Positions 5,981 to 16,031 of a stretch of DNA of 64,000 nucleotides are shown one piece after another (the stretch's first letter is position 1; the number at the start of each line of letters is the position of its first letter). A model generated the notes under the pieces. It was not told where the DNA came from. It ran no database searches and saw nothing but the letters and a program-made list of their open reading frames with translations. The position numbers and the translations under genes were made by a program. This stretch comes from a virus, in the IMG/VR virus record IMGVR_UViG_3300032084_001411, positions 1-64,000 of that record; one strand, given 5' to 3'.

Positions 5981-7088
5981 AAAAGTTAACCCACATCAAT
6001 TATTCGACCAATCCCCTTTAAGTAAATCTTTAAACCTCTATATGAAGACGGAGGCTTCTCCTACAGACAATATAATAATTGCTGGTGGGGCGGCTAGACA
6101 TTTATATAACGGGTCAAATTACGATGATATAGATGTATATGTTCTTGGGCAATCTGAGGATATTAAATGGGGTATAGCCCACCGAATATATAATTTTATA
6201 AAATCTGAAAATAGTAGAATCAGTGTAGAGTTTTCAACTCCTAGAAATGTTCCTACTATTTCATCGGAAGGGCAACCAGCTATTCAAATTATTCCTTTTA
6301 ATACAGCTTCTAGTTTAGATGAGTTATTTGGGGGTTTTGATTTTACATGTTGTTGTTTTGCTCTTATTAAAGACCTGTTAATTTACCCGAAAAATAGTGC
6401 TATACACCATGAAAAGAAGAAACTATTCTGGACTGAAGGGGTGTTGAACTCTGTAGAAGGTTCTAATTTAGAAAATAGATTTTGGAGAATACAAAAATAT
6501 CTTAAAAAAGGGTATAAATTTGGTAAAGGACAAGGGGATTTATTCTTTGATATGCCTTGGAATCCTCAGTTAGAAGAAACTGTAGTAGGGGACCGCATTA
6601 GAAATCAAAGTAGTGGTTCGGACACGGCAAGCCCCCCAGTATCTAGTCAACCTATACTTTTTCCTACAACAGAGGAAATAACTTCTTCTGATTATCTTTC
6701 GAGCCTTATGCATCTTGATAATCTTGAAGACCCCCCTTCTGTCTCTGCAGCTTTAGATGATAACAGAATCGTATTCGCAGAATTAAATGAGGATAGAGCG
6801 GCCCCTGTCTTTGTCCGTGGTTTTAATGTAGCTGCTATACATGAAGCTTTCAGAAATGCTCTTTCTGAAGAGGAGATTACCGACCAAGATTCAAGACGTA
6901 TTCTTAATGCGGATGGGTTGTCCGTAGAAAACGATTTAAATTCTTTTCTTGGCCGGGGCTTTACATGTCGCTACACAAAATTAGATGGGGCTGGCTATGA
7001 AATTTTCTTTTCTGAAGCGGAAGCTTTAAGGATTGAGCTTTTAGAGAACATTCACCAACTAGTTGATAGAGAAAGTGCTAATGGATAA
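5964..7088 (+). CDS. Nucleotidyltransferase-fold protein
   Basis: 374 residues from the ATG at 5964 (GAGGG spaced 5 bases; a GTG at 5952 is also in frame). The N-terminal half shows a polymerase-beta-type nucleotidyltransferase pattern: IIAGGAARHLY, then YDDIDVYV supplying the acidic pair, then an IQIIPF strand. FWRIQKYLKKGYKF resembles helices seen in phage nucleotidyltransferases. The C-terminal half (from about 215) is a separate region with a Ser/Pro-rich linker. The transferred nucleotide and acceptor are unknown. Its 3' end overlaps the next small gene. Confidence 0.6.
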   Translation: MELVTKKVNPHQLFDQSPLSKSLNLYMKTEASPTDNIIIAGGAARHLYNGSNYDDIDVYVLGQSEDIKWGIAHRIYNFIKSENSRISVEFSTPRNVPTISSEGQPAIQIIPFNTASSLDELFGGFDFTCCCFALIKDLLIYPKNSAIHHEKKKLFWTEGVLNSVEGSNLENRFWRIQKYLKKGYKFGKGQGDLFFDMPWNPQLEETVVGDRIRNQSSGSDTASPPVSSQPILFPTTEEITSSDYLSSLMHLDNLEDPPSVSAALDDNRIVFAELNEDRAAPVFVRGFNVAAIHEAFRNALSEEEITDQDSRRILNADGLSVENDLNSFLGRGFTCRYTKLDGAGYEIFFSEAEALRIELLENIHQLVDRESANG

Positions 7089-7278
7089 AAAATTTAAATT
7101 ACCAAAAAGAATAAAAGAGAATACGAATAAACCTATAGAAATTGAGGCTATGCTCCTCGAACAAGAATATATGAAGTTACTCGAAAAAGGTACTCTAGAT
7201 GAATACGAAGAGTTTCTTTTAGATTATTACCATAAGAGATGTAATAAATTGTGGACTAAAATAGCGAGGAAATCATAA
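7081..7278 (+). CDS. Hypothetical protein
   Basis: 65 residues from the ATG at 7081; a TTG further upstream is less likely. Highly charged and helical (IEIEAMLLEQEYMKLLEKG, DEYEEFLLDYYHKR). It is wedged between the nucleotidyltransferase and helicase genes, overlapping each by a few bases. No family is recognised. Confidence 0.55.
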   Translation: MDKKFKLPKRIKENTNKPIEIEAMLLEQEYMKLLEKGTLDEYEEFLLDYYHKRCNKLWTKIARKS

Positions 7279-10106
7279 TGCCAAGTAAATATACTAACCT
7301 ATCCTGTCCTTTATGTGATAGTTCTGATGCGGGAGCTATCTATCAAAACATAGACGAGAAATCCGGGGAACCTTTTTTCATGTTTCGGTGTATGAGCGGT
7401 AATCACGCTGACCACCCCAATAATATAAGAATTGAAGACGCTGACAACTATGAAGAGGAAATTATGAACCCTAAAGGTATTCAAAAGCAACCTTCTGAAC
7501 CTAGAATGGAGTCTATTGGCTTACTAAATACAGGTAAGTACGAGGACTTAGATAATTCTGATGACCCTTGGGGTTATAGAGGATTAACTGCTGAAACTCT
7601 AGAATATTACGGAGTTAGTGTTGCTGAGGATGTTGCTTTAACCAGAAATAGGAAAGTTATTGAACAACGTATGGCCGACAACCTCTCTACTCGCGGGAAA
7701 GGACTGGTATTTCCTTATTATTCTAGCGTTGACAACACTTTAATATGTCAAAAAGTACGTACTGCTGTAGACCGTAAAGGAGCTTGGTATAAAGCTGATA
7801 GCACTAGTGTTAGCATGGCGGGTTTCTTTGGGCAGAATCTGTTTAACGCTAATGTTCTAAACGAGATTGCAGTGACTTTTGGAGAGATGGACGCTATGGC
7901 TGTTCACCAAATGGTAGGTGTGCCAACAGTCAGTGTTTCTAATGGGGACCAAGCCGCTCAAGGACAATTTAGGAACGAGTATTCTTGGCTGTCTAAATTT
8001 GATAGAATTATTCTCATACCTGACAATGATGAGTCTTGTCGGTCTATCGTCCCTCTTCTAGGCGCTGTATTTCCGCGTAAGATTCGAGTAGTTGAATTAA
8101 CTAAATATAAAGACCCATGTGAATATTTGATTAACAAGGAGAGGCAGTTATTTGCAGAAGAATTTTATGCTGCTCAACCGTATTCCCCTGAAAAGATTAT
8201 TAACTTATACTCACTTAAAAAGTTGATTTTTGAGGACCCGCCTGAACCTCTAGCGGACTACCCTTGGGAAGGTGTGAATAAAAAGACAGGTGGAATTTGG
8301 GCGGGGGACCTTGTGGTTTTAAAAGCCTTCCCAAAAGTAGGTAAATGCTTCGGCAAGGACACCCCTGTTCTTATGTGGGACGGTTCTGTTAAAAAGGTGC
8401 AAGATGTTAAGGAAGGCGATTTGTTGATGGGTGATGATTCTACCCCTAGAGAAGTAAAATCTTTAGCTAGAGGTAGAGAAAATCTTTATAAAGTTAAACA
8501 GAATAAACGTATGGATTATGTAGTTAATGAGTCCCATATAATGTCTGTAATGAAAACAGGTTCGTATGAAACTAAAGATGTTCCGCTATTAGAATACTTA
8601 GAAATGCCTCAAAGAGAAAGATGGAAAGGATACGCGGCCCCTGTCTTCAAACAAGATATTGAGGATACTGAAAGACCCAATCTATCTTGGGACGCGCAGG
8701 TATTGGGCTTGTGGTTGGGCGATGGTACGTCTTTAGAACCTAGCTTTACTACTACTGATGACGAGATAGTTGATTATCTACAAGAGTATGCGCAATCTCG
8801 GGGCATGGAATTCGGCTATAGAAACGGCCCTGACGATATTATATACCGTTTTAAATCAGGTGAGGCGGGAAATAACTACTTCTTAAACTTGCTTAAAAGA
8901 CTTGAACTTTTGGGGGATAAACATATACCAGATGAAGTTTATTTCTGGCCTGATTCCGCTCGTTTAAGTTTACTAGCTGGCCTATTAGACTCTGACGGAC
9001 ATTTAATTAAAAATATCGACGGGGATATAACTTGTGTAGAAATTGTTCAGAAAAACAAATACCTAGCAAAAGGTATAGTGAAGTTAGCACAGTTCTGTGG
9101 TTTTCGAGCTTCCATGTATCAAACTGAAAAATCATGCACATACAAAGGGGAAAAGCGCACTGGTACTTACTACCGTATATTTATTAATGGAGACTTACAC
9201 AAAATTAATGGCGTTCTACCTCATAAACAAACATACGGGTTTAGAAATAAACGTAACCCCCTTATAACTGGTATAGAAGTAGAGGCTATTGGTATCGGGG
9301 ATTACTATGGGTTTGTTTTAGATGGTAACCACAGGTTTTTACTTTCTGACTGTACTGTAGTCCATAACACCACTGTTAGTTCTGAAATTGTTTATCATCT
9401 AAATAAGACAACAGACTACCCTATCGGTCTTATCTTTTTAGAAGAAACTCAAAGAGACTTGATTGTTAGATTTGCTACTATGGAACTTAATAAGAACTTA
9501 CAGGTGAGTGGTATATTTAGGGATACTGACCCTTCTGAAATTGAAAAAGCTATTGATGTAACCCTTAGCAGTGAGAAAATTACTTTACTAGACCATTTTG
9601 GGTCTTGCTCTTCTGATTTCCTAGAAGAGAAAATTAAAGAGTTTGTCTTAGCTAAAGGGTGCCAATTCATCTTTTTCGACCACATATCTATGGCCATTAC
9701 CGACGATACTAACAAGGACGAGAGACTTGCTTTAGATAGACTTGTGGCCTCTATTAAAGCCTTAACAGTCGGGATAACAGACTCTATTACAATTCCAGAT
9801 GAAGAGAACGGGGGCACTAAACAAGAGCAGATTACACGCCAACCTACAGTGTTCATGGTTACCCATGTTAACGACGATGGTAAGCCTAGAGGTTCCCGCG
9901 CTCCGATTCAAATGTGTAATACAATGATTTCTTTGGAAAGGGATAAGAACGCATCGGACGATAATAGCCGCAACACTCTGAAGCTTTTTGTGGAAGAGAA
10001 TCGTAGGTTCGGGGATACGGGGTTGGCCAGTGTCCTATCTTATAGCCCCTCTACTGGCCGCTTAAATGAAGTCCCATTAGAAAATGAAGGGGAAAGACAT
10101 GACTAA
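7278..10106 (+). CDS. Replicative helicase-primase (T7 gp4/Twinkle-like) interrupted by an intein
   Basis: 942 residues as encoded, about 601 after splicing. The N-terminus has a zinc-ribbon-like start (CPLCD near residue 10). A TOPRIM-type region follows with FGEMDAMA and ILIPDNDES. The SF4/RecA-like helicase core has its Walker A motif (PKVGK/TT) split by a 341-residue intein. After the intein come FLEETQRDLI, the Walker B-like strand FIFFDHIS and the THVNDDGKPRGS motif. The spliced protein would unwind DNA 5'-3' ahead of the family A polymerase encoded next. Priming activity is uncertain because the zinc motif is not fully typical. The gene overlaps the polymerase start. Confidence 0.9.
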   Translation: MPSKYTNLSCPLCDSSDAGAIYQNIDEKSGEPFFMFRCMSGNHADHPNNIRIEDADNYEEEIMNPKGIQKQPSEPRMESIGLLNTGKYEDLDNSDDPWGYRGLTAETLEYYGVSVAEDVALTRNRKVIEQRMADNLSTRGKGLVFPYYSSVDNTLICQKVRTAVDRKGAWYKADSTSVSMAGFFGQNLFNANVLNEIAVTFGEMDAMAVHQMVGVPTVSVSNGDQAAQGQFRNEYSWLSKFDRIILIPDNDESCRSIVPLLGAVFPRKIRVVELTKYKDPCEYLINKERQLFAEEFYAAQPYSPEKIINLYSLKKLIFEDPPEPLADYPWEGVNKKTGGIWAGDLVVLKAFPKVGKCFGKDTPVLMWDGSVKKVQDVKEGDLLMGDDSTPREVKSLARGRENLYKVKQNKRMDYVVNESHIMSVMKTGSYETKDVPLLEYLEMPQRERWKGYAAPVFKQDIEDTERPNLSWDAQVLGLWLGDGTSLEPSFTTTDDEIVDYLQEYAQSRGMEFGYRNGPDDIIYRFKSGEAGNNYFLNLLKRLELLGDKHIPDEVYFWPDSARLSLLAGLLDSDGHLIKNIDGDITCVEIVQKNKYLAKGIVKLAQFCGFRASMYQTEKSCTYKGEKRTGTYYRIFINGDLHKINGVLPHKQTYGFRNKRNPLITGIEVEAIGIGDYYGFVLDGNHRFLLSDCTVVHNTTVSSEIVYHLNKTTDYPIGLIFLEETQRDLIVRFATMELNKNLQVSGIFRDTDPSEIEKAIDVTLSSEKITLLDHFGSCSSDFLEEKIKEFVLAKGCQFIFFDHISMAITDDTNKDERLALDRLVASIKALTVGITDSITIPDEENGGTKQEQITRQPTVFMVTHVNDDGKPRGSRAPIQMCNTMISLERDKNASDDNSRNTLKLFVEENRRFGDTGLASVLSYSPSTGRLNEVPLENEGERHD
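8346..9368 (+). mobile_element. Intein with LAGLIDADG endonuclease in helicase P-loop
   Basis: 341 residues, starting Cys (CFGKDTPVLMWDG, block A) and ending VVHN before an extein Thr. The block B position has NESH instead of the usual TxxH. Two LAGLIDADG helices are visible (VLGLWLGDG and LLAGLLDSDGH), so an in-frame homing endonuclease is present. Block F is GDYYGFVLDGNHRFLLSD. Insertion is exactly between Lys and Thr of the Walker A motif, so the helicase is inactive until splicing. Block A Cys and terminal His-Asn are intact, so splicing should work. Confidence 0.93.
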
Positions 10107-13100
10107 CACGATATTTATAGACTTTGAAACTAGAAGTAAATGTGATATTACAAAAGCAGGTGCTTGGCGGTATTCTCAAGACCCAACTACTGATGTGATG
10201 TGCATGGCGTACGCTATTGATGATGGGCCTGCGCAATTATGGGTTCCTTCTCATTTTGACCTACCCGCTGATTATGAAGAAACTCGAACTAAAGACTTAC
10301 ACCATAAAATTAACCTAGCTGAAAAACGTAAAGAAAAATACAGTAAAGAACAGGGCAAAGATGAGTTATACGAGAAAGCTGTGGAGGAAATTAAATTCTT
10401 TAAATCTTTGTTAGACGATAATGGGGAATTTAAACTCTCTTTTACCTACCACACAGATGTCCCCGCTTTTATAACAGATAGAAAAGTATTTGAAGACGTT
10501 GGGGGGTTGTTAGAAGCCCATAACGCTTCATTCGAACAAGCTATATGGGCGAACGTACTCGTACCTAAATATGGAGCTTTTGAGGCCCCTCCTATTATTT
10601 GGAGAGACTCTATGGCTATGTGTGCCGCCCACAACATCCCTCTTTCTTTGGAGAAGGCTGGTGCGGCTTTGAATGTAGATAAACAGAAAGACTTAGAAGG
10701 TAAGAGGGTTATGTTACAACTTTCTCAACCACGTAAACCTTCTGCGTCTAACCCAAAAGAATGGTGGGAACCAACTGAGGCTGCTGATAAATTTGAAACC
10801 GTATTTATGTATTGTATGGATGATGTGGAGACAGAGCGGGCTATTGGTAAGGCATTAAACCCGCTTACAAAGAAAGAACAGTGGGTTTGGCTACTAGACC
10901 AAATGGTTAACCAACGCGGTGTACAAATAGACGTAGACTTAGTATATCGTTGCCTAGACATTATTAAAGAGCATACAGAAGCGGGGAAGAGACGGATAAC
11001 TGAACTTACTAACGGTGAAGTAACAAATGTTTCATTAGTAGCTAAATTAAAAGACTGGGTTATTAGTCAAGGTGTGAAAGTTGAGGATATGACAAAAGCT
11101 TCGGTAGAGGCTCTTTTAGCCGATAAAGACACTCCCGAAAATGTTCGAGAAGCTATGCTTATCCGGCAATCTCTTTCTAAAGCTAGTACTAAAAAACTAG
11201 ACACAATGCTATTTGCCAAGGCTATAAACGATAATCGTATTCGGTACACTCTTTTATATCATGGAGCATCCACAGGAAGATGGGCTGGGAGGCTTATCCA
11301 AGTACAAAACTTTCCTAGAGGTTCTATAAAAGATATAGACCAAGCAGTTCAAGACTTATTTGATTTAAGTTTAGAAGAACTGCAAGATAAGTACGGAGAT
11401 GTGATGGAAGTCATTTCTTCTTGTCTTAGAGCTATGATTGTACCCGACAAAGGACATGATTTTATTGTTGCTGACTACGGAGCTATTGAAGCTAGGGTCG
11501 TTATGTGGTATGCAGACGAGCAGGATGCTCTACAAAAGTTTCGAGATGGTGTCGATTTGTATAAAGATATGGCGGGCTATGTATACGATAAACCTTTAGA
11601 GGAAGTCGATGATAGTGAAGAACGTCAATTAGGTAAAAGCATAATTCTCGGTTGTTTCGAAGAGGATACTCCAGTCTTGACAAATAGCGGCGTGAAGCGT
11701 ATTATAGACGTTCATGATACGGATTTGTTATGGGATGGAATTGAATGGGTAAAACACCAAGGACTACAATACCAAGGAATAAAAGAGACGAAGAGGACTT
11801 ACGGAATAGGCGCAACTCTGGACCACGAGATTCTAGTGGACGGTACGTGGCAGGAGTGGAACGAGGTAACTACAAACCCTTCCCTTTTCCAGAAGGCGCT
11901 CAATTTGGAGAACTTACCGTCGAGCGCTGGGAACGAAAATACGATAAACGAGGACGCTCTCAAGGCTTCCACCCTCTCTGTTATTGTTCCTGTGGCAGAC
12001 GAACTCATATTGATAGGCACTCCCTTAAATCAGGAAGAACACGCAGATGCAATGTCTGCGCTAAGAAAAAGAGTTCAGCGACCCGGAAAAAATATATTGG
12101 ATATGCATCGATTGTACCCGATGACCGACATAGGGAAAGACTGCTTAATAGAATCAGTGCTTGCATCAGCCGATGCCATGTCGAAAGTAACACCTATTAC
12201 GAACATTATGGAGGGAGGGGAATTAGAGTCCAACCTGAATGGCGTAGAGACAGAAAATTATTCTTGGAGTATCTTATCACTTTGGAAGGATGGGACAAAC
12301 CCTTCCTTGAACTGGACAGAATTGATGTCAACCGTGGATATGAGGAAGGAAATTTACGCTTCTGCACTCGTAGCGAAAACATGTCAAATCGAAGAAGGGT
12401 GTCTGACCTCCAAAAACAAATCAATGAACTCGAAGCAGAGGTCGAGCGTTTACGACATTATGAACGCCGGGCCAAGGAATAGATTCACTATTATCACTAA
12501 CCACGGCCCTATTATCGTTCATAATTGCGGGTTTGGAATGGGGGCTAATAAATTCCAGATGACAACTGAGAGCCAAGGGCTACAACTCGATGAGAAGATG
12601 GCTGCTGCTGCGGTTAAAGCTTATAGAGAGAAATATTCTGGCGTACCCCAATTCTGGAGAAATACAGAGAAGGCGGCTATTGACGCGGTTAAGACTAGAG
12701 AACCTCAAGAAACTAACAAAACTACGTGGGTTTTTAACGAAGAAACTAACTTTCTAGAATGTCTACTCCCTTCCGGGCGGTCTCTATATTATTATAACCC
12801 TAAGATTAAAATAGGTTGGGCAGTTAAGTGGATTGACAGTAAAAAGAAGTTTCATTACGATAAATACGATTCTAAAGATGAAGCTTTACTCGCTCTAAGT
12901 GGGCGTAAAGATGACCCACTTTGTACTCGCATAGTTGATAATGACATACATGAAGATGAATCTTTGACCCATATGGGGGTCAACAGCGTTACTAAACAGT
13001 TTCAACGGCAGGAAACTTACGGCGGGAAGCTTGTGGAGAATGTCGTACAAGCTACTGCCAGAGATTGTATGGTCGAAGGTATGTTTAGAACAGAAAAAAA

Positions 13101-13266
13101 TAAATACTTGACAATTATGACAATTCATGATGAAATAGTATCTGAAGTTCCAGAAGGACAAGGTTCTGTTGAGGAATTCGAGTCTTTATTAGCCCAAACC
13201 CCCGAATGGGCTGACGGTCTACCTTTGGTAGCCGAAGGATGGCGGGGAAAGAGATACCGTAAATAG
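10099..13266 (+). CDS. Family A DNA polymerase interrupted by an intein
   Basis: 1055 residues from the ATG at 10099 (GGGGAAAG upstream; an ATG at 10084 is in frame), about 764 after splicing. The N-terminal 3'-5' exonuclease motif IFIDFETRS comes first, then EAHNASFEQAIW. Polymerase motif A is VADYGAIEARV, motif B (O-helix) is RQLGKSIILG/CGFGMG split by the intein, and motif C is MTIHDEIVSEVP. This is the replicative polymerase of T7/SIO1-type phages. Its start overlaps the helicase stop, and the SSB-like gene follows, forming a replication operon. Confidence 0.93.
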   Translation: MTNTIFIDFETRSKCDITKAGAWRYSQDPTTDVMCMAYAIDDGPAQLWVPSHFDLPADYEETRTKDLHHKINLAEKRKEKYSKEQGKDELYEKAVEEIKFFKSLLDDNGEFKLSFTYHTDVPAFITDRKVFEDVGGLLEAHNASFEQAIWANVLVPKYGAFEAPPIIWRDSMAMCAAHNIPLSLEKAGAALNVDKQKDLEGKRVMLQLSQPRKPSASNPKEWWEPTEAADKFETVFMYCMDDVETERAIGKALNPLTKKEQWVWLLDQMVNQRGVQIDVDLVYRCLDIIKEHTEAGKRRITELTNGEVTNVSLVAKLKDWVISQGVKVEDMTKASVEALLADKDTPENVREAMLIRQSLSKASTKKLDTMLFAKAINDNRIRYTLLYHGASTGRWAGRLIQVQNFPRGSIKDIDQAVQDLFDLSLEELQDKYGDVMEVISSCLRAMIVPDKGHDFIVADYGAIEARVVMWYADEQDALQKFRDGVDLYKDMAGYVYDKPLEEVDDSEERQLGKSIILGCFEEDTPVLTNSGVKRIIDVHDTDLLWDGIEWVKHQGLQYQGIKETKRTYGIGATLDHEILVDGTWQEWNEVTTNPSLFQKALNLENLPSSAGNENTINEDALKASTLSVIVPVADELILIGTPLNQEEHADAMSALRKRVQRPGKNILDMHRLYPMTDIGKDCLIESVLASADAMSKVTPITNIMEGGELESNLNGVETENYSWSILSLWKDGTNPSLNWTELMSTVDMRKEIYASALVAKTCQIEEGCLTSKNKSMNSKQRSSVYDIMNAGPRNRFTIITNHGPIIVHNCGFGMGANKFQMTTESQGLQLDEKMAAAAVKAYREKYSGVPQFWRNTEKAAIDAVKTREPQETNKTTWVFNEETNFLECLLPSGRSLYYYNPKIKIGWAVKWIDSKKKFHYDKYDSKDEALLALSGRKDDPLCTRIVDNDIHEDESLTHMGVNSVTKQFQRQETYGGKLVENVVQATARDCMVEGMFRTEKNKYLTIMTIHDEIVSEVPEGQGSVEEFESLLAQTPEWADGLPLVAEGWRGKRYRK
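11653..12525 (+). mobile_element. Intein in DNA polymerase motif B, lacking an in-frame LAGLIDADG domain
   Basis: 291 residues beginning CFEEDTPVLTNSG (block A) and ending GPIIVHN, followed by an extein Cys. Block B is ATLDHEILVDG with a proper T-x-x-H. Block F is SVYDIMNAGPRN. Between blocks B and F about 190 residues show no recognisable domain in this frame, only an open reading frame. The same DNA encodes an HNH-type endonuclease in another frame. Splicing residues Cys1, TxxH, His-Asn and +1 Cys are all intact. Insertion is inside the nucleotide-binding O-helix, a site where splicing is essential for viability. Confidence 0.9.
11745..12482 (+). CDS. HNH homing endonuclease encoded out of frame inside the polymerase intein
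   Basis: A 245-residue open frame shifted by -1/+2 relative to the intein. From about residue 50 it reads like a complete phage HNH endonuclease: EGAQFGELTVERW (50-62), a cysteine cluster C79/C81/C83 and C102/C105 for zinc, YGGRGIRVQPEW (155-166), LDRIDVNRGYEEGNLRF (190-206), the NRRR end of the domain, and a C-terminal coiled coil. The first 45 residues overlap intein block B and may not be translated; a GTG near residue 35-38 is an alternative start. No strong Shine-Dalgarno is seen. The coding part fits exactly between splicing blocks B and F. Confidence 0.8.
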   Translation: MGKTPRTTIPRNKRDEEDLRNRRNSGPRDSSGRYVAGVERGNYKPFPFPEGAQFGELTVERWERKYDKRGRSQGFHPLCYCSCGRRTHIDRHSLKSGRTRRCNVCAKKKSSATRKKYIGYASIVPDDRHRERLLNRISACISRCHVESNTYYEHYGGRGIRVQPEWRRDRKLFLEYLITLEGWDKPFLELDRIDVNRGYEEGNLRFCTRSENMSNRRRVSDLQKQINELEAEVERLRHYERRAKE

Positions 13267-13318
13267 CGGTGTCGAACAACTCAAATTAGAAGGACAATCC
13301 TGAAAGGAAACATTTAAT

Positions 13319-13987
13319 ATGACTACTTCTAATACTCAAAAGAAAGAGTACACCGGGGATAAACCGGACTTTTGTACTCTCCGTGGGGTTTCAATGTACG
13401 CTAAAGTATTTCAACCCTCTGCATATAATGAACAATATAACATCCCTGCTCGTTGGGAGGTGGATTTGTTGCTCACGAAAACAGAGGCAGAGAATGCTAA
13501 GAGTCGTGGATTGAACATCCGAGACGATAATGACCGTTACCGCGCTTTTCTAGAAGAAAACGACCTTGTATCTAAAGGTTTTGAAGGTGCGTTCATTAAA
13601 ATTAAAAAGCCAACTACCCGTAAAAAATGGGATGCAGAGGCAGGTGCTACAGTCAAAGACGCATCTGGCCAACCAGTTCTGGAAGCTGCCCCACGCCCAC
13701 GAGTAGTTGATTCTCAAGGGACTGAAATCCCTGAAGAAGCAGGTCTTTTGGTTGGTAATGGTTCTGAAGTCGAATTGACTTTCATAATCACTAAACCGAA
13801 AGCTGGTGGCCGTGAACAGTTTGGTAAGTTTGGTGGCCGTTTGGTAGAGACCAAGATTCTTGAATTGGTCGAGTATCAACGCCCTCAAGGTTCTTTCACT
13901 TTTAATAGTGAGAGTACAACTGAAGCTGAGAGTTATCAAGCTGATATGGCAGAGGATGAAATTCCCTTTTTGCCAGATGAGGAATAA
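13319..13987 (+). CDS. Single-stranded DNA-binding protein (T7 gp2.5-like)
   Basis: 222 residues. The body looks like an OB-fold with beta strands (WEVDLLLTKTEA, EVELTFIITKPK, GGRLVETKILELV). The last residues form the acidic tail typical of SSBs (MAEDEIPFLPDEE, with an aromatic inside). It lies directly after the polymerase gene and before a terminator-like hairpin. It would coat ssDNA and contact the helicase and polymerase through its tail. The assignment rests on context, tail and strand pattern rather than a unique motif. Confidence 0.75.
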   Translation: MTTSNTQKKEYTGDKPDFCTLRGVSMYAKVFQPSAYNEQYNIPARWEVDLLLTKTEAENAKSRGLNIRDDNDRYRAFLEENDLVSKGFEGAFIKIKKPTTRKKWDAEAGATVKDASGQPVLEAAPRPRVVDSQGTEIPEEAGLLVGNGSEVELTFIITKPKAGGREQFGKFGGRLVETKILELVEYQRPQGSFTFNSESTTEAESYQADMAEDEIPFLPDEE

Positions 13988-14052
13988 CACCCACCTCTGT
14001 AGTGCGGAAGCTAACTGCACTTAAAACAAAAGAATGCTGAGTCCGTTATGGG

Positions 14053-14088
14053 GCGGGGTACTTGTAGTAAGAAACCCCCGCATTTTTT
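14053..14088 (+). terminator. Rho-independent terminator after the SSB-like gene
   Basis: GCGGGG at 14053-14058 pairs with CCCCGC at 14076-14081 and is followed by a run of six T. It lies between the SSB-like gene and the exonuclease gene, so it may separate or attenuate two transcripts. Confidence 0.75.
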
Positions 14089-14107
14089 AAAGAAAGGAAT
14101 CGATATA

Positions 14108-15073
14108 ATGAGTTTTACATACGACCCAGATACCGCTAAAAAGAAAGGTTCTTTTACCTTTCAACAAACAGGGATTGACACCTTAGTAGATGATATCTAC
14201 GAGTACATGGGTGGTGGAGGCAAATTTCCTAAATTAGACGAAGATGCTGCTGAACAGCTTATGGAGATTCTCTCTCATATTGTCGTTGAAAGGCTTAAAG
14301 AACGAAGAAATGAAATTAAAAACTTTAATAACGACTCTAGTGGTTTTAAGCTTCGTATGTCCAATTACGGACAGCCTTCCAGAAAGCTTTGGTATGAGGC
14401 TAATGTCGGAACAGACCTTGGAGCGACTGACCCTAGAGCTTTTCTTAACTTTTTAATTGGGGATATCTGGGAAGGCGTTCTTCTTTTCATCGCTAAACAG
14501 ACTGGGCATGATGTCTCAATGGAGCAAGAAGAGGTAGAGTTAGACGGTCTTGTAGGTCATATGGATGCTGTTATTGACGGGTATCTCGTAGATGTAAAGT
14601 CTGCCTCTAAATATTCCTTTGAGCGCAAGTTCACCTCCGGGGCTATATTTGAGGGGGACGACCCTTTTGCCTATATACCTCAGATTAAAGCTTATGGTAA
14701 AGCCACAAATATGGATAAACAAGCTTGGTTAGTGGGTAATAAAGAGAACGGGATGCTCGCTACGGTTAAAGTGCCTGAGCATATTGAATTTGACGCTGTA
14801 GCTAAGTTACGAGAAGCACGTAAAGTTATTGCTATGTCTGCTCCACCAGAAGAGAAATGTTTCCAGCCTGTCCCACATAATAAAAGTGGAAATATGCAAC
14901 TTAATGGTAATTGTAAGTTCTGCGCCTTCAAAGAAAGGTGTTGGAAAGATGACGGGCTTAGGGCCTTTAAATACGCTACTGGCCCCGTATATCTAACACA
15001 TGTTGAGTCTGAACCTAAAGTTGAAGAAATTGATATCTACGGTACTTGGGAAGATAGTGAATATGCCGAATAG
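14108..15073 (+). CDS. RecB/Cas4-like PD-(D/E)XK exonuclease
   Basis: 321 residues from the ATG at 14108 with AAAGGA upstream. The nuclease core is visible: FLIGDIWEGVL, GLVGHMDAVIDGYLVDVKSAS (D...D-V-K) and a C-terminal cysteine cluster CKFCAFKERCW of the iron-sulfur or zinc type seen in Cas4/AddB-like enzymes. The enzyme probably degrades host DNA or processes recombination or packaging intermediates. The stop overlaps the resolvase-like gene by 11 bases, so the two nucleases are co-translated. Confidence 0.8.
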   Translation: MSFTYDPDTAKKKGSFTFQQTGIDTLVDDIYEYMGGGGKFPKLDEDAAEQLMEILSHIVVERLKERRNEIKNFNNDSSGFKLRMSNYGQPSRKLWYEANVGTDLGATDPRAFLNFLIGDIWEGVLLFIAKQTGHDVSMEQEEVELDGLVGHMDAVIDGYLVDVKSASKYSFERKFTSGAIFEGDDPFAYIPQIKAYGKATNMDKQAWLVGNKENGMLATVKVPEHIEFDAVAKLREARKVIAMSAPPEEKCFQPVPHNKSGNMQLNGNCKFCAFKERCWKDDGLRAFKYATGPVYLTHVESEPKVEEIDIYGTWEDSEYAE

Positions 15074-15401
15074 AAATAAACAAAGAGGGGACGAATTAGA
15101 AAGACAGGTTGTTAATTTCCTGAGAGACCAAGGGTACATCTGTGAAAGAACTCTTGAACGGGGGGCTAGGTCAGATGGTAGTCCTACTTGGGATATTGAT
15201 TTAGACATAGCAGGTCATAAACTTAAAATTGAATGTAAAAGAAAGAAAAGAGGGTTTCAATTTATCTATGATAGTCTAGGAGACAATGACATATTAATTC
15301 TTAAACAAGACCGAAATAATCCTTTATATGTTGTGTCAGAGACTTTGTTACTCGAACTTTTAGCTACATTTTATGAGGCGAAGAGATGGAGTGAATCATA
15401 A
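15063..15401 (+). CDS. Hjc-like Holliday junction resolvase / PD-(D/E)XK nuclease
   Basis: 112 residues from the ATG at 15063. The pattern GDELERQVVNFLRDQGY...RG...SPTWDIDLDIAGHKLKIECKRKKRG has the E...D-x-D...E-x-K arrangement of the archaeal Hjc-type resolvase fold. It overlaps the exonuclease gene. The likely role is to resolve branched DNA before packaging or during recombination-dependent replication. A general nicking nuclease cannot be excluded. Confidence 0.75.
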   Translation: MPNRNKQRGDELERQVVNFLRDQGYICERTLERGARSDGSPTWDIDLDIAGHKLKIECKRKKRGFQFIYDSLGDNDILILKQDRNNPLYVVSETLLLELLATFYEAKRWSES

Positions 15402-15404
15402 TAT

Positions 15405-15683
15405 ATGGAACATTATAAGTTCGTAGAAGGTGAAACAAAGCTTTGGAGAAGTCTAGTCGAGTTAATGCTCCACGACCTCGGTTCCAAAGACTTACAGATA
15501 CGGGAAGAAGCTGAAGAATGGTTGTGCCCGTTAAATAGAGACTTTCTATTTGTGTGTGATTTAGCGAGTTTAGACCCAGAAAAAATCTTAGAGTTTATAG
15601 AATCTAATAAATCTATTTTACAAAGTACTGATAATTTAAAGAAAAAAGTAAGGAGTTTGAAGAAGAAATATGGGGAAGAATAG
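15405..15683 (+). CDS. Hypothetical protein
   Basis: 92 residues, acidic and helical, with a basic C-terminal tail (KKKVRSLKKKYGEE). It contains REEAEEWLCPLNRDFLFVC, which resembles small phage proteins of unknown role. It overlaps the next gene by 14 bases. Confidence 0.55.
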   Translation: MEHYKFVEGETKLWRSLVELMLHDLGSKDLQIREEAEEWLCPLNRDFLFVCDLASLDPEKILEFIESNKSILQSTDNLKKKVRSLKKKYGEE

Positions 15684-15900
15684 CCCTACTGACTATACAA
15701 TGAACAAAGAAGCTGCTGAATCTCTCGCTAACGAGATACAAAAATTCTGGCATGACAAAGGCTGCAGCAGTGTTGAAGTGTGGGTAGAAACCATTCCTGT
15801 CTATAATAGAGGTGAAGAAAAACGAATTGCTACTCGATTTGAAATTAATTCAAACATCATTCAATCTTTGTCAAGTCTTGAAAACGACAATTATATATAG
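15670..15900 (+). CDS. Hypothetical protein
   Basis: 76 residues; an ATG at 15700 is an in-frame alternative start. A central strand-rich section (SVEVWVETIPVYN, RIATRFEINSN) suggests a small alpha/beta fold. No family is recognised. It is the last gene before the ribonucleotide reductase operon. Confidence 0.5.
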   Translation: MGKNSPTDYTMNKEAAESLANEIQKFWHDKGCSSVEVWVETIPVYNRGEEKRIATRFEINSNIIQSLSSLENDNYI

Positions 15901-15912
15901 TATATTAAAATA

Positions 15913-15986
15913 TTCCAACTCTGGCTTTCCTGAATTTCCACTTAGGACCGTTACGACTCAAATTGGGCGGCTGGAGTTGGATTTTT
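15913..15986 (+). terminator. Possible long-loop terminator or structured leader before nrdB
   Basis: TCCAACTC (15913-15920) is the exact reverse complement of GAGTTGGA (15974-15981), which is followed by five T. The loop of about 53 bases is long for a simple terminator, so a structured leader of the nrdB-nrdA transcript is also possible. Confidence 0.4.
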
Positions 15987-16031
15987 AACCCATAACCCAC
16001 AGGACAATAAGAAGAAAGGACCGGGAGCGCA

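Follow-up and report, generated by a model that had tools for sequence, protein, structure and literature searches.

Where does the endonuclease of an intein reside when the intein's own reading frame contains none? The question is raised by an intein in a phage DNA polymerase gene in IMG/VR record IMGVR_UViG_3300032084_001411, of which we analysed positions 1 to 64,000 (the window; the virus record spans 66,483 bases). In the usual picture of inteins, the endonuclease is an in-frame domain of the same protein. An initial annotation of the window proposed that here an HNH homing endonuclease is encoded out of frame, inside the intein. Our analysis leads us to favour, with a probability of roughly 0.85, a mobile intein whose splicing and nuclease functions are carried on one stretch of DNA in different frames. 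Coordinates below are those of the window, and all features lie on its plus strand.

The polymerase gene (10084-13266) belongs to the family-A phage polymerases and is a single continuous open reading frame (ORF) of 1060 codons, intein included, which matches Pfam DNA_pol_A (E=4.5e-21) and PHROG_17, DNA polymerase (E=2.1e-96). The intein takes up 291 codons (11653-12525) in polymerase motif B (SIILG/C...HN/CGFGMG). Its splicing residues are all present (C1, T55-L-D-H58, block F, H290-N291 and Cys+1) and invariant among 11 homologues; they comprise the N-terminal Cys, the block B TxxH and the C-terminal His-Asn followed by Cys, Ser or Thr that mark a class 1 intein. In the AlphaFold model of the polymerase-frame reading, residues 1-~85 and ~261-291 form an ordered splicing domain with a predicted local distance difference test score (pLDDT) of about 96, and residues 93-257 are disordered. 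The ordered parts correspond to an N-terminal half with blocks A and B (11653-11907) and a C-terminal half with blocks F and G (VYDIMNAGPRNRFTI...IIVHN; 12448-12525, pLDDT about 93-96), both of which are constrained in the polymerase frame in the substitution scan described below. Foldseek placed the splicing domain with the Ssp DnaB, gp41-1 and RecA mini-inteins (probability 1.00), as expected of a HINT fold, and a profile search also matched the intein to the RecA intein (E=4e-4). Neither Pfam, NCBIfam and PHROG profiles nor the AlphaFold model revealed a nuclease domain in the polymerase frame of the intein, which sets it apart from inteins with an in-frame endonuclease; intact splicing blocks with no nuclease in their own frame are what the initial annotation had described. 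PHROG_93 'endonuclease' weakly matches the entire intein length (E=1e-6), and we read this match as an intein-family hit.

The -1 (+2) frame of the same DNA holds an ORF of 245 amino acids (11745-12482), whose ATG overlaps Glu31-Trp32 (GAATGG) of the intein; these limits, like those of the intein, agree with the initial annotation. The claim that this frame encodes an HNH protein with zinc cysteines also held up: residues 50-219 match PHROG_374 'HNH endonuclease' (E=7.5e-33), as do 28/28 members of the nested HNH family, although the product went unrecognised in sequence searches of Pfam, NCBIfam and the PDB. The zinc-ribbon cysteines C81, C83, C102 and C105 (11985-12059) are invariant in the 28 sequences, across which mean column identity is ~51%. 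Equally invariant is an HNH-like catalytic stretch, D191-R192...Y199...N203-L-R-F...N212...R217 (12315-12395), which can be aligned with DHKDGNKDNN..NLRWVT..N of I-HmuI. Residues 1-43 are predicted to be disordered, whilst residues 51-245 (11895-12479) form an ordered part with pLDDT mostly 75-97, ending in a helix at 219-244 (12399-12476, pLDDT 85-94) that would be a coiled coil. As had been claimed, the HNH core begins directly after block B and stops at block F, with the 3′ end of the ORF overlapping the first 35 bases of the C-terminal splicing half.

The coexistence of two open frames is far from accidental. When HNH codons were shuffled synonymously the polymerase frame stayed open in 0/20,000 cases (mean 6.1 stops), and when polymerase codons were shuffled the HNH frame stayed open in 0/20,000 (mean 11.0 stops); the third frame carries 25 stops within the shared stretch. 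The initial annotation was thus right that the openness exceeds chance, but its estimate of about 1 in 10,000 was too mild. Amongst relatives the polymerase frame is open in 106/106 inteins, where 4.5 stops would be expected in each, and in a second, independent family of inteins, with the HNH gene in the +1 frame, 4 polymerase-frame stops were observed against 449 expected.

Selection acts on the two frames in different places. Every possible and observed change between pairs of relatives was classed by its effect in each frame. For close, medium and far pairs respectively, substitutions in the HNH core that are silent in the HNH frame and change the polymerase frame reached 0.17, 0.64 and 1.74 per site, against 0.02-0.05, 0.07-0.13 and 0.19-0.31 for those that change the HNH protein. 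HNH-silent changes are near neutral and dN/dS (the ratio of nonsynonymous to synonymous rates) for the HNH protein is about 0.1; selection thus preserves the HNH protein, whereas the polymerase-frame reading of the core is free to change apart from avoiding stops. This comparison had been proposed as a check by the initial annotation, and none of the outcomes that it named as refuting its reading was seen: the second frame is related to HNH proteins, stays open in relatives and is under strong purifying selection. Along the intein, constraint is in the polymerase frame for codons 1 to ~60, in the HNH frame for a middle stretch of ~190 codons (~65-256) and in the polymerase frame again from ~262, and an identical hand-over is seen in the +1 family. 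Both synonymous classes are suppressed in a short zone (11821-11928; intein codons ~57-92, HNH codons 26-61), which is followed by the polymerase-frame reading of the HNH core as a ~165-residue disordered linker (11929-12423, pLDDT mostly <50) that is kept only stop-free. Taken strictly, 'dual-coding' therefore describes only ~36 codons at the 5′ margin and about a dozen at the 3′ margin, and not the rest of the core. In the predicted models, each product is ordered where its own frame is constrained.

The region around the start codon carries a signature of its own. The position of the ORF start is kept in about 100 loci. In the 71 loci with the -1 layout that remain after dereplication, HNH-frame stops are strongly depleted over codons 33-64 (9 observed, 88.8 expected) and show no depletion over codons 1-24 (112 against 78.7). 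Since depletion sets in only from codon 33, HNH translation probably starts near codon 32, and the sequence suggests that initiation probably uses the ATG lying within the Glu-Trp (GAA TGG) of a conserved W-D-G-x-E-W motif. Codon choice fits such a start: Glu31, before W32, is GAA in 45/60 cases where each phage's codon usage predicts 26.5 (P=3e-7). A later start at an NTG over Trp66, near which HNH-frame constraint begins, was considered and rejected, as the stop depletion over codons 33-64 and the GAA bias at codon 31 favour W32 and the Shine-Dalgarno (SD) sequence at W66 is no better than the control. The codon preceding Trp27 (11728-11730) ends in A in 48/71 loci, with 12.5 expected (P=9e-25). 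Such a codon makes an upstream ATG in the HNH frame, often followed by a stop adjoining the HNH ATG. The window itself has a four-codon mini-ORF of this kind (ATG GGA TGG AAT TGA; 11730-11744), and as its TGA abuts the HNH ATG, re-initiation is possible. Inside it lies the SD-like sequence GGGATGG (11732-11738), with a predicted duplex of about -6.4 kcal. Several members of the +1 family have AGGAGGT 8-9 nucleotides upstream of the ATG.

The arrangement is widespread, with hundreds of phages sharing it. A tblastn search with the polymerase-frame intein recovered 193 phage records (164 at a coverage of 80% or more), chiefly from Salmonella phages (Jerseyvirus) but also from some Dhillonvirus; the HNH gene lies out of frame in the same place in the records that were examined (Ent1, SO-1, EP23, MR14, EBPR siphovirus 2 and Vibrio 97.13). 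In IMG/VR, 412 stretches encode relatives of the intein alignment. The non-redundant inteins that were fetched have the HNH gene in the -1 frame in 102 cases, in the +1 frame in 73 and in frame in none (0), and a further 20 are mini-inteins without HNH; exceptions are Salmonella phage SS3e, broken by an indel, and L262, with mixed frames. In the SS3e record (L019, NC_006940.2, 1626-4726) the indel breaks the polymerase frame within the intein, and the annotation splits the gene into two pieces of polymerase and an HNH. A search with the splicing domain only, which is blind to the insert where the other fetched loci are biased toward the arrangement of the query, added 41 loci with the +1 layout, 4 with -1, 12 mini-inteins, 4 with no recognised insert, 5 whose C-terminus was not found and 0 in frame. 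An assembly error or a pseudogene was rejected, given the identical -1 layout in about 100 loci (71 dereplicated). The departure from in-frame inteins that the initial annotation saw is thus real, though it is no lone oddity but the usual plan of a large intein clade, in two frames.

Insertion sites comprise several polymerase motifs and SNF2-like helicases, the latter identified by reading the sequence. Out-of-frame-HNH inteins of the same types are found in the seeming SNF2-like helicase genes of L308, L091, L296 and L297, from which it would appear that the element has reached unrelated target genes. Some polymerase genes (L040, L055, L059, L218 and L224) hold two such inteins each, in different motifs, and several pair a -1 with a +1 element. 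In a tree of HNH proteins, built after 57/144 HNH ORFs taken for free-standing had been recognised as nested copies, the -1 sequences form essentially one clade (31/32 rows; Shimodaira-Hasegawa-like approximate likelihood ratio test support of 99). The splicing-domain tree agrees, grouping 46 inteins of the -1 type plus one mini-intein with support of 95, and the matching clades indicate that the arrangement is old. Mini-inteins are scattered on this tree of only 90 columns, with 10 changes for 12 rows, a pattern consistent with repeated loss of the nuclease. We consider it likely from these sequences that out-of-frame nesting is standard and old in a large clade of phage inteins and was established at least twice, that the core, read in frame, serves as a spacer under no selection other than to stay stop-free, and that the start of the nuclease was built from the conserved tryptophan motif of the intein.

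The intein also moves. At fourfold-degenerate sites, intein alleles often differ far less than the exteins beside them (L041/L306, 0.11 against 0.67, P=1.8e-21; L026/L039, 0.20 against 0.57; L055/L058, 0.24 against 0.61; and in the +1 family L014/L055, 0.02 against 0.30), which argues for movement of the element, although a few pairs are reversed (L060/L082, intein 0.38 and extein 0.18). Polymerase genes with an empty site occur in 103 phage records, 102 of them matching 80% or more of the joined-flank query. Similar intein alleles and empty sites are the expected outcome of homing, of which the HNH protein may be the driver.

Considering these data together, we propose that the two ends of the polymerase-frame reading form a mini-intein (HINT) splicing domain that would remove itself from the polymerase, the middle being translated into a flexible linker. 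In the frame one base back, that middle would be a full cistron with its own ATG and stop, from which internal initiation on the same messenger RNA would yield a free HNH-family endonuclease. The presumed target of this protein is the intein-less polymerase gene of a co-infecting phage, which it would nick or cut; repair would then copy intein and nuclease jointly. Insertion out of frame would let the HNH gene retain its own start and stop without terminating the polymerase. The model builds on two frames that are open and selected, the partition of constraint between them, the start-site signature, the fold predictions and the horizontal movement of the element; splicing, HNH translation and DNA cleavage are the steps that we infer.

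Several observations weigh against this scheme. His75, the catalytic His of I-HmuI (PMC12724721) and its general base, aligns in a weak match with the invariant Arg192, so the HNH protein lacks the Asp-His...Asn arrangement of that nuclease, whilst the Asp, the Asn and the NLRF/NLRW stretch are kept. A Foldseek search of the HNH model against the PDB matched no solved structure. With His replaced by Arg and no recognition by Pfam or the PDB, nuclease activity is uncertain and is suggested by family and behaviour. In the -1 family, synonymous shuffles yield SD-like sequences just as strong, so that GGGAYGG is set by the W-D-G codons with no extra optimisation, and selection for a stronger SD at W32 was rejected on the same ground. 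Finally, L031, L061, L063, L100 and L108/L109 have an HNH frame that is disrupted close to the start or early in the core; these loci probably hold decaying nucleases or have later starts.

An invariant Arg where I-HmuI has its catalytic His would also suit an HNH protein that is still produced but has lost its nuclease function and is kept instead as a DNA-binding or regulatory factor. We regard this as improbable, though the most serious of the alternatives: intein alleles move between phages, repeated loss leaves mini-inteins behind, and the family label is shared with many phage HNH endonucleases. A good deal less plausible is that programmed -1 frameshifting from the polymerase frame produces the HNH protein as a fusion. 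The HNH gene of the window's family does lie in the -1 frame of a translated gene, but canonical slippery heptamers occur in only 5/71 loci at no fixed position, an HNH-frame stop falls in codons 21-31, directly upstream of the start, in 44/71 loci (in the window, the TGA abutting the ATG), and in the second family the HNH gene lies in the +1 frame and has standard SD-ATG starts. We give still less credence to the HNH reading as a fossil, an in-frame endonuclease shifted by indels into a now non-functional frame. Homing endonucleases often decay and some loci have broken HNH frames, but a dN/dS clearly <1 in close relatives, with no selection on the polymerase-frame reading of the core, together with the conservation of the HNH frame across the family and the lack of an in-frame relative among the fetched inteins, speaks strongly against it. 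That the insert is instead a group I intron harbouring an endonuclease ORF, as the public annotation of Sodalis phage SO-1 gp38/gp39 has it and as the HNH ORFs of polymerase-gene introns (PMC3428280) might suggest, is the least credible reading, since a search of window 6000-16000 against Rfam, with E values of up to 1 allowed, gave no match and hence no sign of a group I core, the intein motifs and HINT fold are intact, and the polymerase frame is open throughout in every one of the 106 inteins.

If the out-of-frame intein is as we propose, one DNA stretch makes two proteins and an entire clade appears to follow this plan in two frames. It would illustrate a way for a selfish nuclease gene to settle inside a protein-coding gene, with a start and a stop of its own, and do no harm, and would explain the mobility of seemingly nuclease-less inteins with a disordered middle. 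The annotation of public phage records would be corrected, in well over 100 cases, and the sharp hand-over of constraint offers a natural test case for the evolution of overlapping genes.

Bifunctional inteins of the conventional type, which have a LAGLIDADG or HNH domain in frame, share with this element the splicing blocks, the position of the nuclease between blocks B and F, and mobility. In the present case, however, the nuclease lies in the other frame with its own start and stop, and so would be a separate protein rather than a domain of the intein. The same phage has a second intein in the upstream primase-helicase gene (7278-10106), seemingly a conventional one with an in-frame LAGLIDADG (LLAGLLDSDGH); both arrangements thus appear to occur in one phage. 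Group I introns with HNH ORFs in phage polymerase genes (I-HmuI, I-PfoP3I; PMC3428280) likewise pair a polymerase target with a separate HNH-type nuclease, but here the protein would be spliced rather than the RNA, the host frame continues across the nuclease gene, and the HNH protein is only remotely like I-HmuI.

Elements of the same kind are already present in public records. Sodalis phage SO-1 gp38/gp39 (L012, NC_013600.1, 1594-4782) is the same type of intein with a nested HNH, annotated in both frames and labelled a type I self-splicing intron; in Hamiltonella phage APSE-1, P45/P46 lie at a different insertion site with the +1 frame, both frames being partly annotated and P46 given no function; and for Salmonella phage Ent1 gp37 only the intein is annotated. 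None of these three records describes an intein with an out-of-frame nuclease. Our literature search found no paper on such an intein, although a preprint on the 'non-canonical architecture' of actinobacteriophage inteins (10.1101/2025.01.02.630785), which lay beyond that search, might describe one. Among published cases, the ShiLan domain (Arsenault, Gosselin and Gogarten 2025, PMC11855218) comes closest: it is a phage-gene insertion free of stops, with an out-of-frame HNH ORF, a patchy distribution and an in-frame reading that folds poorly. The gene that holds ShiLan encodes a DNA methylase; no splicing motifs could be detected in ShiLan, and its authors regard it as neither intein nor intron and as probably retained (PMC11855218). 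Like ShiLan, the element described here has its HNH gene out of frame within the stop-free insert of a phage gene; unlike ShiLan, it carries that gene within a complete intein, splicing domain included, in polymerase and helicase genes and in two different frames.
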